Source of the DNA: Thermus amyloliquefaciens
GTDB lineage: Bacteria > Deinococcota > Deinococci > Deinococcales > Thermaceae
Direction of reading: 5' to 3'
NCBI RefSeq assembly: GCF_000744885.1
Contig: NZ_JQMV01000003.1
Location: forward strand, 1,922,001 to 1,986,000
DNA length: 64,000 nucleotides
A program made the translations under genes and the position numbers. Position 1 is the stretch's first letter; each line of letters starts with the position of its first letter. This document shows, piece after piece, positions 3,848 through 45,665 of this stretch. Below the pieces are notes generated by a model, which worked only from the letters and a program-made list of their open reading frames with translations, did not search any database and was not told the origin of the DNA.

Positions 3848-4017
3848 CCCCTGCCCGGGCACGGAGTCTCGGGAAAGCCTCAGGGGCCCAAGGCCTGGAC
3901 CCCCCCTCAGGGGTTCTGGTTTGGATATCCCGTCGCGGCTTGCGCCACGACAGGGGCCCCGGGAAGGCTTTGGGGATCGCCCTTCTTCACCTATCCACAA
4001 CCTGCGGGCACCGGCCC

Positions 4018-43380: not shown

Positions 43381-44583
43381 ATGAGGCCTCTTTCCGGCAT
43401 CAAGGTCCTGGACCTCTCCCGGGTCCTGGCGGGGCCCCTTTGCACCATGGTCCTGGCCGACCTGGGGGCGGAGGTGGTCAAGGTGGAACCCCCCTGGGGG
43501 GACGAAACCCGGGGCTGGGGCCCCCCCTTCGTGGGGGGGGAAAGCGCCTACTTCCTTTCCGTGAACCGGGGCAAGCGGAGCCTGGCCCTGGACCTCAAGG
43601 CCCCAGAGGGCCAGGAGGCGGTGCGGAGGCTGGCCCAAAGGGCCGACGTGCTGGTGGAAAACTTCAAGACCGGGGACCTCAAGCGCTACGGCCTGGACTA
43701 CGAGGCCCTAAAGGCGCTGAACCCGCGCCTTATCTACCTCTCCCTCACCGGCTTCGGCCACACGGGGCCCAGGGCCCAAGAACCCGGGTACGACGCCGCC
43801 TTGCAGGGCTACACCGGCATCATGTCCGTGACCGGGGAGCCGGAAGGCCCCCCCATGAAGGTGGGGGTGGCCTGGATCGACGTGATGACGGGGATGATGG
43901 GGGCGGTGGCGGTCCTGGCGGCCCTCTACGAGCGGGAGCGAAGCGGTTTGGGTCAGCACATCGACCTCTCCCTCTTTGACGTGGGGCTCTTCGCCCTGGC
44001 CAACCTGGGGGAGAGCTACCTCCTCACGGGCAAGCCCCCGGGGCGCCTGGGCAACGCCCACGCCCAGATCGTGCCCTACGGGGCCTTCCCCGCGGCGGAC
44101 GGTTGGCTGGTGCTGGCGGTGGGCAACGACGAGCAGTTCCGGCGGCTTTGCCATGTGCTGGACCTGCCTTGGCTTTGGGAGCGCTTTCCCCAAAACCCCC
44201 AGAGGGTGGAGCACCGCAAGGAGGTGGTGGAGGCGGTTTCCGCCGTGCTGAAGACCCGCCCTCGAGGCTACTGGCTGGAAAGGTTCAAGGAGGCGGGCAT
44301 CCCCGCCGCCCCCGTGAACGACCTGGCGGAGGCCTTCCAGGACCCGCAGGCCCAGGCCCGGGGTGCGGTCTGGACCCTCCCTCACCCCCTCCTGGGACCC
44401 CTCCCCACCCTGGCCAACCCCTTGCGCTTCCTCTCCCGCACTCCCGCCGCCCCCTCCCTTCCCCCGCCCCTCCTGGGGGAGCACACGGAGGCGGTGCTCC
44501 TCGAGGCGGGCTTCACCCCGGAGGAGGTGCGGGCCCTTGTGGAAAAGGGGGTGGCCCGGAGGGCGAAGGGGGAGGAGGGATAG
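43381..44583 (+). CDS. CoA transferase family III (CaiB/BaiF), 400 aa
   Basis: The conserved opening GIKVLDLSRVLAGPLCTMVL and DLGAEVVKVEPPWGDETRGW are diagnostic, followed by NRGKRSLALDLKAPEG and LVENFKTGDLKRYGLDYEAL. The catalytic Asp lies in the region GYDAALQGYTGIMSVTGEPE. These enzymes move CoA between carboxylic acids. The substrate pair is not evident. It converges on the SRP RNA gene. Confidence 0.88.
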   Translation: MRPLSGIKVLDLSRVLAGPLCTMVLADLGAEVVKVEPPWGDETRGWGPPFVGGESAYFLSVNRGKRSLALDLKAPEGQEAVRRLAQRADVLVENFKTGDLKRYGLDYEALKALNPRLIYLSLTGFGHTGPRAQEPGYDAALQGYTGIMSVTGEPEGPPMKVGVAWIDVMTGMMGAVAVLAALYERERSGLGQHIDLSLFDVGLFALANLGESYLLTGKPPGRLGNAHAQIVPYGAFPAADGWLVLAVGNDEQFRRLCHVLDLPWLWERFPQNPQRVEHRKEVVEAVSAVLKTRPRGYWLERFKEAGIPAAPVNDLAEAFQDPQAQARGAVWTLPHPLLGPLPTLANPLRFLSRTPAAPSLPPPLLGEHTEAVLLEAGFTPEEVRALVEKGVARRAKGEEG

Positions 44584-44587
44584 GGAA

Positions 44588-44640
44588 AAGCGCCCTCCTG
44601 GAGGGCGCTGGTCTGCAAAAGGGCCTTGCGGGGCCCAAAA
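44588..44640 (-). terminator. Tandem terminators of the SRP RNA gene
   Basis: Read on the minus strand, GGGCC-CCGCAA-GGCCC followed by TTTT (44618-44636 region) and then AGCGCCCTCC-AGGAGGGCGCT followed by TTTT (44588-44609 region) are two intrinsic terminators in series. The T runs are on the minus side only, so they act on the ffs transcript. Confidence 0.7.
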
Positions 44641-44646
44641 GGAGCC

Positions 44647-44667
44647 TGTGGATAACCCTGTGGATAA
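44647..44667. promoter_or_regulatory. Two consensus DnaA boxes in tandem
   Basis: TGTGGATAA occurs at 44647-44655 and again at 44659-44667, both exact complements of the bacterial DnaA-box consensus TTATCCACA, in the same orientation and 12 bp apart. They lie between the SRP RNA 3' end and its terminators. No other origin feature (AT-rich unwinding region, dnaA, dnaN) is present, so this is not oriC. Confidence 0.75.
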
Positions 44668-44668
44668 C

Positions 44669-44769
44669 GCCCCCGGCTACCCAGCGGCACCCGACCCGTG
44701 GCGCTTAGGGCTGCTTCCTTCCGGACCTGACCCGGTTCACGCCCGGACCGCCGCGCTGGACCGGGGGCT
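44669..44769 (-). ncRNA. ffs: Signal recognition particle RNA, small bacterial type (4.5S-like)
   Basis: The minus strand carries the SRP RNA domain IV core GGTCAGGTCCGGAAGGAAGC with its GGAA tetraloop, at about 44700-44735. The flanks pair into one long hairpin: the 5' GAGCCCCCGG pairs with the 3' GCCGGGGGC end, and CCAGCGCGGC with GCCGCTGGG. It binds Ffh to target membrane proteins. A TATACT -10 box at 44775-44780 precedes the 5' end. The ends are estimated from the pairing. Confidence 0.92.
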
Positions 44770-44773
44770 CGGG

Positions 44774-44780
44774 TAGTATA
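44774..44780. promoter_or_regulatory. Shared divergent -10 region of ffs and the ABC exporter
   Basis: The sequence TAGTATA reads as TATACT on the minus strand (44775-44780, for ffs) and as TAGTAT on the plus strand (44774-44779), 7 nt before the ABC gene ATG at 44787. The two -10 boxes overlap almost completely, so only one promoter can be occupied at a time. Confidence 0.6.
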
Positions 44781-44786
44781 GCACCC

Positions 44787-45665
44787 ATGGAAGCCCTGAG
44801 GCTAGAGGGGCTCGGCAAGCGCTACGGCCGTAAGCCCGTCCTGGAAGGGGTGAGCCTGGCGGTGAGGCCGGGGGAGGTCTACGCCCTGGCCGGGCCCAAC
44901 GGCTCCGGCAAGACCACCCTGATCCGCCTGGTCACGGGGTTGGCCTTCCCCACGGAGGGCCGGGCCTTCCTCCTGGGGGAGGACGTGCACAAGAACCCCA
45001 AAGCCCGGCGCCACCTGGGGGCGGTGGTGGAGGCCCCCGCCGCCTTTTACCCCTACCTCACGGGGCGGGAGAACCTGAGGATGCACGCCTACCTGGCCGC
45101 GGTGCGGGACGAGGGCCGCATCAGCGAGGTCCTGGCCCGGCTCAAGCTCCTGGCGGTGGCCGACCAGAAGGTGGGAAGCTACTCCCTGGGCCAGCGCCAG
45201 CGCCTGGGCCTGGCGGCCGCCATCCTGCACCGGCCCAAGGTCCTGGTCCTGGACGAGCCCACCTCGGGCCTGGACCCCGAGGGGGTGGAGCTGGTCCATG
45301 GCCTCTTGCAGGAGCTGGCCCGGGAAGGGGTGGCGGTCCTCCTCTCCACCCATCACCTGCAGGAGGTGAGCCTTTATGCCCACAAGGTGGGCATCCTGGG
45401 AGGGGGAAGGCTTCTGGACGAGGTGGTCCTGGAGGGGCGGGAGGTGTACCGCCTCGAGGCCCACCCCCTGGAGGGCGCCTTTGCCCTCCTCAAGGCCCTA
45501 CCCCAGGTGGCCTCGGTGCAGCTGCAGGGCGGGGCCATCCTCTTCGCAGGAAGTCCGGAGGTGGCCCTGGAGGCCCTCCTCAAAGAGGGCTACCGGGTGC
45601 AGGCCCTGGAGCCCCACCGCTTTGACCTCATGAGCTACTACCAGGAGAGGGTGAAGCATGCTTAG
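44787..45665 (+). CDS. ABC transporter ATP-binding protein (ABC-2 exporter), 292 aa
   Basis: Walker A AGPNGSGKTTLIRL is near residue 36, the signature YSLGQRQRLGLAAA near 132, Walker B VLVLDEPTSGLDPEG near 152 and the H-loop STHHLQEV near 188. It pairs with the membrane subunit that follows with an 8-bp overlap. Cargo could be a drug, lipid or peptide; nothing nearby decides. Confidence 0.87.
   Translation: MEALRLEGLGKRYGRKPVLEGVSLAVRPGEVYALAGPNGSGKTTLIRLVTGLAFPTEGRAFLLGEDVHKNPKARRHLGAVVEAPAAFYPYLTGRENLRMHAYLAAVRDEGRISEVLARLKLLAVADQKVGSYSLGQRQRLGLAAAILHRPKVLVLDEPTSGLDPEGVELVHGLLQELAREGVAVLLSTHHLQEVSLYAHKVGILGGGRLLDEVVLEGREVYRLEAHPLEGAFALLKALPQVASVQLQGGAILFAGSPEVALEALLKEGYRVQALEPHRFDLMSYYQERVKHA

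Follow-up and report, generated by a model that had tools for sequence, protein, structure and literature searches.

A conserved DnaA box pair at the 3' end of the SRP RNA gene in Thermus: a putative DnaA control site outside the origin

The described systems closest to the locus reported here come from E. coli. The datA locus follows the glyVXY tRNA operon, and passages of PMC10950094 report box 2 of datA to be needed for the formation of DnaA oligomers and to lower read-through; in the E. coli sequence, datA holds a double box and, 162 bp on and in the same orientation, a box-like 9-mer, TTATTCACA. A second precedent is the asnC terminator, where RNA polymerase is halted by a DnaA complex (Schaefer and Messer, 1988, 1989, as cited in the same passages of PMC10950094), and E. 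coli MG1655 carries the box TTTTCCACA approximately 21 bp behind asnC, presumably the box of those studies, oriented to transcription as are the boxes described below. With respect to binding, portions of PMC11317965 place E. coli DnaA in vivo mainly on boxes 2-3 bp apart, report that altering either box or adding 1 bp of spacing strongly cuts binding, and state that ChIP peaks are predicted substantially better by double than by single boxes. For the DnaA of a thermophile, binding to two boxes with a 3-bp gap has been reported at 8 nM (Pei, 2007, cited in an excerpt of PMC4588119).

In Thermus, DnaA boxes are described for oriC, which in T. thermophilus contains 13 consensus or near-consensus sites (Schaper, 2000, as cited in part of PMC4451416) and in T. 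parvatiensis contains 12 boxes with the consensus TGTGGATAA (PMC5529391, the accessible sections of which treat boxes for oriC only). No description of DnaA boxes at ffs, the gene encoding the small SRP RNA, was found in the accessible portions of the open-access literature, including the corresponding sections of PMC12494982, on Mycoplasma pneumoniae.

A pair of such boxes was noticed behind ffs in a first-pass annotation of a 64,000-nucleotide stretch of Thermus amyloliquefaciens DNA, here called the window and analyzed at its full length. The find is real, recurs in the majority of the Thermus genomes compared, and is larger than first described. To our knowledge, little is known about how Thermus limits or times initiation, and one conserved, well-delimited DnaA site away from oriC would offer a direct genetic handle on this process, consisting of three 9-mers, one of which can be changed via synonymous codons.

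The box pair and its setting

In the window, ffs occupies positions 44667-44767 of the minus strand (RF00169, 66.8 bits, cut-off 40). It is flanked by a convergent CoA-transferase family III gene at 43381-44583 (plus strand; PF02515, 453.9 bits) and by a divergent ABC transporter ATP-binding gene at 44787-45665 (plus strand; PF00005), an order common to 27 Thermus genomes and to G049, a genome of a sister genus. Specifically, the CoA-transferase gene adjoins ffs in all 27 and in G049, and the ABC gene does so in 26 of the 27, the exception being G046, where approximately 1.1 kb, inserted upstream of ffs, lies between. TATACT at 44775-44780 (minus strand), which precedes the 5' end of ffs by 7 bp and lies between ffs and the divergent ABC start codon, is by eye a likely -10 element of ffs; a promoter scan at ffs returned nothing.

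Two copies of TTATCCACA, read in ffs sense, stand in tandem at the ffs 3' end: box 1 at 44659-44667 and box 2 at 44647-44655, both on the minus strand and both reading TGTGGATAA on the plus strand. The two perfect boxes of like orientation named by the first-pass annotation are therefore present, and the 12 bp by which they were said to be apart is the start-to-start distance, the gap between them being 3 bp. The RF00169 model match shares its last base with the start of the pair, and the ffs sense strand directly past the RNA reads TTATCCACAgggTTATCCACA. Two 9-mers near TTATCCACA, in tandem and 2-3 bp apart, constitute a DnaA double box, and the pair has exactly this layout. An exact TGTGGATAA 9-mer is expected 0.04 times in the 64-kb window, and two copies arose in none of 100 shuffles. 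Allowing up to one mismatch, the window contains nine matches to TGTGGATAA against 2.8 expected (nine were reached in none of 100 shuffles), three of which are boxes of the ffs site; the same scan recovered the one-mismatch relative previously listed at 3991.

The pair had been placed between ffs and its terminators, a description that holds for hairpins with short T tails found by a loose rule, whereas a stricter scan of 44500-44900 found no terminators. One such hairpin, at 44589-44609 (minus strand) with a TTT tail, is a candidate two-way terminator for ffs and the CoA-transferase gene, and a second, at 44621-44636 (minus strand) with a TTTT tail, is a candidate ffs terminator delimited by eye, for which the loose rule gives a longer hairpin with the same end base. 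By the loose rule, candidate intrinsic terminators lie within 190 bases in 18 of the 24 Thermus genomes that carry the pair. Within the 35 bases from the ffs 3' helix onward, a run of at least five T is found in none of these 24, in one of the three Thermus genomes lacking the pair (G037), and in 19 of 23 other Thermaceae. The box pair stands in place of the T-run found in most relatives.

A third box within the convergent gene

The original picture of two boxes was correct as to both, and incomplete in that a nearer one-mismatch box, TGTGGAAAA on the plus strand, had been missed. This third box lies at 44538-44546 on the minus strand, where it reads TTTTCCACA in the same orientation as the pair, 109 bp from box 2 and within the last codons, at the 3' end, of the convergent CoA-transferase coding sequence. 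Among the 24 paired genomes, 23 have CTTTTCCACAAG at this place and G046 has ATTTCCACA; the 12-mer CTTGTGGAAAAG is likewise intact in 23 of 24. The third box is missing in G049 and in all three unpaired Thermus genomes (G037, G038, and G048), which lack all three boxes jointly.

The spacer between the third box and the pair (44547-44646) has diverged in sequence, yet its length is nearly constant, the distance from box 2 to the third box being 109 bp in 11 genomes, 110 bp in eight, 111 bp in one, and 100 bp in three, with no exact third box in the remaining one. This distance is kept although spacer sequence and stop codon position vary. The three genomes with 100 bp (G027, G035, and G047) are not sister taxa, and their alignment gaps fall at two different places; the helical phasing of 100 versus 109-111 bp is suggestive, not proven. 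Control gaps in the neighborhood behave variously: two are far more variable, that between 46425- and 48181+ measuring 531-693 bp in 20 genomes and that between typA and 40502- measuring 209-347 bp in 13 of 17 genomes and more than 3.5 kb in the other four, whereas that between 40502- and 41319+ measures 41-45 bp in 16 of 22. Since this last, short gap is near-constant, a fixed length does not by itself set the spacer apart.

Evidence of constraint on the third box is also found in its codons. The codons CTT GTG GAA AAG are invariant in 21 aligned sequences (21 of 22 genomes, G039 falling below the coverage filter, in an alignment made without the fragment of G042 and the frameshifted tail of G046). 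In six neighboring genes, counting the columns in which the amino acid is invariant, CTT is kept throughout in just one of 249 for Leu and GAA in just one of 81 for Glu, and in each case this is the third-box codon; both are non-preferred codons, the last bases of which belong to the box. These counts draw on six of 10 genes, 37551 having been left out with its 16 sequences and 38416, 42565, and 48660 because their alignments held 0-2 usable columns. Taken by itself, the length of the codon-invariant run was rejected as evidence, a four-codon run in another gene scoring 7.6 bits against 6.6 here. In G046 (L165), the CoA-transferase tail is frameshifted, with the frame running through both boxes of the pair into ffs, and here the pair is intact and the third box carries a further mismatch, so that conservation of the third box may partly rest on the protein.

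Distribution and history of the site

The gene ffs was found, and its downstream flank read, in all 50 Thermaceae genomes. A search for the same pair in other Thermus, proposed at the outset as a check, located it at the same spot in 24 of 27 Thermus genomes: both boxes are perfect in 20, one is perfect and the other changed at position 3 in four (G030, G035, G042, and G047), and G037, G038, and G048 have no pair. Box 1 is exact in 21 of the 24 paired genomes and box 2 in 23, and the three and one deviating copies, respectively, differ at position 3 only, where they carry T or G; this change is known from oriC boxes as well. All 24 pairs have a 3-bp gap, and their position, measured from the SRP core, differs by at most 2 nt. 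Pairwise identity averages 0.97 and 0.99 for the boxes, 0.86 for the 3-bp gap, and 0.40-0.42 for the next 60 bases, the last figure being somewhat lowered by counting identity without gaps.

No pair was found behind ffs in any of the 23 non-Thermus Thermaceae genomes. A scan of the phylum matched 24 of 111 genomes, all Thermus; the presence of ffs itself was established for the 50 Thermaceae. In the genome contig collection, the SRP core followed by an exact box within 36-64 bases occurs in 24 stretches, nine of them from Thermus, and of the 15 others L071 and L072 alone appear ffs-like by eye and have one box each in the stretch viewed. No wider spread beyond Thermus was found in these scans, the non-Thermus matches being near chance level by a rough estimate.

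The genome-wide list of exact boxes that the first-pass annotation called for has 13 entries, 10 in oriC, two at ffs, and one single; the reversed-pattern control gives six, and composition predicts approximately 3.4 single boxes and 3e-6 exact 3-bp-gap pairs per genome. The single box, at C3:946704-946712 (L067:4705) and roughly opposite oriC, sits inside a putative sensor-kinase-like ORF. At up to three mismatches of 18, the double boxes of the genome number three: the one at ffs and a further two in oriC. Across the 27 Thermus genomes, at up to two mismatches, there are 78 double boxes, 54 beside dnaA (two in each genome), 24 at ffs, and none elsewhere, against zero in the reversed-pattern control. 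On the strength of shuffles, genome-wide rarity, and conservation, chance was rejected as the source of the pair.

At the same threshold of two mismatches, the 23 non-Thermus Thermaceae have 2-14 double boxes per genome, oriC included; G049 has two, fitting its oriC cluster. Twelve double-box places were viewed in three of these genomes (L127-L138), which, unlike Thermus, carry several outside oriC: nine lie inside script-called ORFs that include, by eye, phosphopentomutase-like and NADH:flavin oxidoreductase-like ones, and a cluster of two pairs lies beside an acetyltransferase-like ORF.

The oriC of T. amyloliquefaciens (C3:5507-5724) lies behind dnaA (C3:4159-5502, Pfam-checked), and the gene that follows from 5800 is dnaN-like by eye. 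It contains 13 boxes at up to one mismatch, TTTTCCACA among them, and its segment C3:5516-5539 is identical over 24 bp to the sequence around the ffs pair (CCTGTGGATAACCCTGTGGATAAC). The earlier remark that no replication-origin features are near can thus be made precise, in that oriC is approximately 94 kb off if C3 (2,055,291 bp) is circular. The ffs-oriC distance is 82-94 kb in nine of the 11 paired genomes that have both on one contig, and 196 and 284 kb in the other two, with two of the 11 assuming a circular contig. In most genomes in which this distance can be measured, the site is therefore copied soon after oriC.

With respect to history, the trees conflict. A dnaA tree (31 taxa, without G042) groups G037, G038, and G048 basally within Thermus, with supports of 0.89 and 0.97, which would imply a single gain without any loss. 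In a tree of seven genes (27 taxa, without G042, 20-27 sequences per gene, six of the seven genes being neighbors of the locus), G037 is again basal, but G038 and G048 fall well inside Thermus, beside G027. On the seven-gene tree, with which the dnaA tree alone disagrees, we favor one gain after the G037 split and one later joint loss of the three boxes by deletion. In G038 and G048 (L158 and L167), most of the spacer is gone and the stop codon of the CoA-transferase gene falls within ffs; a deletion appears to have joined the two convergent genes, taking all three boxes with it. Between dnaA and the ffs neighborhood, the trees disagree over G030, G038, and G048, perhaps as a result of recombination.

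Proposed function and comparison with known systems

The functional reading first attached to the boxes, that of real DnaA sites which would titrate or reactivate DnaA or link transcription of a growth-related RNA to the cell cycle, was to be refuted by a lack of conservation behind ffs. It is upheld in part: conservation in 24 of 27 genomes, the tandem layout, and the 24 bp shared with oriC point to a DnaA site under selection. Given the preference of E. coli DnaA for close double boxes, binding of DnaA to the ffs pair is very likely. DnaA would occupy the 3-bp-spaced pair cooperatively, and further DnaA on the third box, approximately 10 helical turns off, would join the pair complex, probably with bending of the DNA; we lean slightly toward the view that the three boxes between 44538 and 44667 would form one joint DnaA complex outside the origin. 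Because the pair starts at the ffs end, in the orientation seen at asnC and datA, such a complex would stand in the way of RNA polymerase as it moves out of ffs, and ffs transcription and DnaA occupancy would then affect each other. The local effect would be a polymerase block behind ffs, while the main task would be similar to that of datA or DARS, the site holding or altering DnaA shortly after initiation at oriC. It is the third box, at its constrained distance, that suggests a complex of several DnaA molecules, and with it a datA- or DARS-like task over a bare roadblock. A role in replication control, rather than in termination pure and simple, falls just short of an even prospect, and both this assessment and that of the joint complex were lowered slightly on account of G046 and the near-constant control gap. 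Against a control site of this kind stand the small number of boxes, three being few for titration beside the 13 of the genome's own oriC, the three of 27 Thermus genomes that do without it, the distances of 196 and 284 kb from oriC in two of 11 genomes, and, for the local effect, the loose-rule terminators in 18 of 24 paired genomes, which may make a roadblock superfluous.

The strongest competitor, which we consider a tentative but substantial possibility, is that DnaA on the pair merely stops RNA polymerase behind ffs, setting or regulating the 3' end of the SRP RNA and shielding it from convergent CoA-transferase transcription, with no control of replication. In its favor are the position of the pair at the RNA 3' end, where it replaces the T-run, and an orientation identical to that of the E. 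coli box located approximately 21 bp past asnC; the terminator hairpins between the genes are not conserved throughout, and in G046 the third box has degenerated although the pair is intact. Left unexplained are the third box itself, 100-111 bp off and beyond the candidate terminators, and its frozen synonymous codons. Passive titration, in which DnaA would be held and then released or diluted on replication, with neither nucleotide exchange nor an effect on ffs, appears distinctly unlikely. It would draw on a cluster outside the origin that, at 82-94 kb from oriC in nine of 11 genomes, is duplicated soon after initiation, and on the sole non-origin double box of the Thermus genomes searched, but three boxes against 13 in oriC offer little capacity in a genus of which one species, T. 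thermophilus, is described in abstracts as polyploid, and neither the geometry of the boxes nor their place at ffs is accounted for.

Still less probable is an element acting in RNA, by which a read-through ffs transcript containing UUAUCCACA twice would be read as an 'rDnaA box' or as a processing signal. The sense orientation behind an RNA gene accords with this proposal, and for E. coli a his attenuator that depends on DnaA and contains RNA boxes has been put forward (PMC10989985); the relevant portion of that paper itself concedes that there is no conclusive evidence of direct binding, and both the exact identity with oriC DNA boxes and a third box lying antisense in a coding gene fit DNA binding better. 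That the site is an accident, or a functionless relic of an oriC copy, is scarcely credible: transfer of a segment by recombination is conceivable given the 24 bp identical to oriC, but near-invariance over 24 genomes beside DNA of approximately 40% identity, a nearly constant third-box distance, frozen synonymous sites, and the uniqueness of the double box all contradict it.

Returning to the control-site reading, its fullest form holds that the end of ffs in Thermus carries one dedicated DnaA control site outside oriC, at which a looped three-box complex, sensing or swept by ffs transcription, would couple initiation to export capacity, with DnaA also terminating ffs. Taken as a whole, this scenario is speculative and rather unlikely. 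In more general terms, the ffs site may be regarded as a putative chromosomal DnaA control site of a known kind in a different setting.

As at datA, a cluster of boxes outside oriC lies behind a stable-RNA gene and would be reached by its read-through transcription, as reported for datA (passages of PMC10950094), the orientation to transcription is that of the boxes at datA and behind asnC, and a further box follows, 162 bp on in datA, where it is a box-like 9-mer, and 100-111 bp on here. Several differences accompany these similarities: the neighbors are a CoA-transferase and an ABC transporter gene and not glyVXY and queG, the datA boxes, unlike the ffs pair, are not at the exact RNA end, and datA requires IHF. 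The asnC arrangement, a box behind a gene with the sense strand reading TTxTCCACA, recurs in the ffs pair, which differs in having two perfect boxes and a distant third, in lying behind an SRP RNA gene with its T-run replaced, and in that the block is putative. DARS1 and DARS2, too, carry a double box outside the origin (PMC11317965, table 1), but are located upstream of uvrB and mutH. Finally, the T. amyloliquefaciens oriC shares 24 bp and the box TTTTCCACA with the ffs site and differs from it in being a large cluster of 13 boxes (at up to one mismatch) beside dnaA, as opposed to three boxes and no dnaA. Set among these systems, the ffs site would extend a datA-like layout to another stable-RNA gene, and would be a DnaA site standing where the T-run of an RNA gene used to be.
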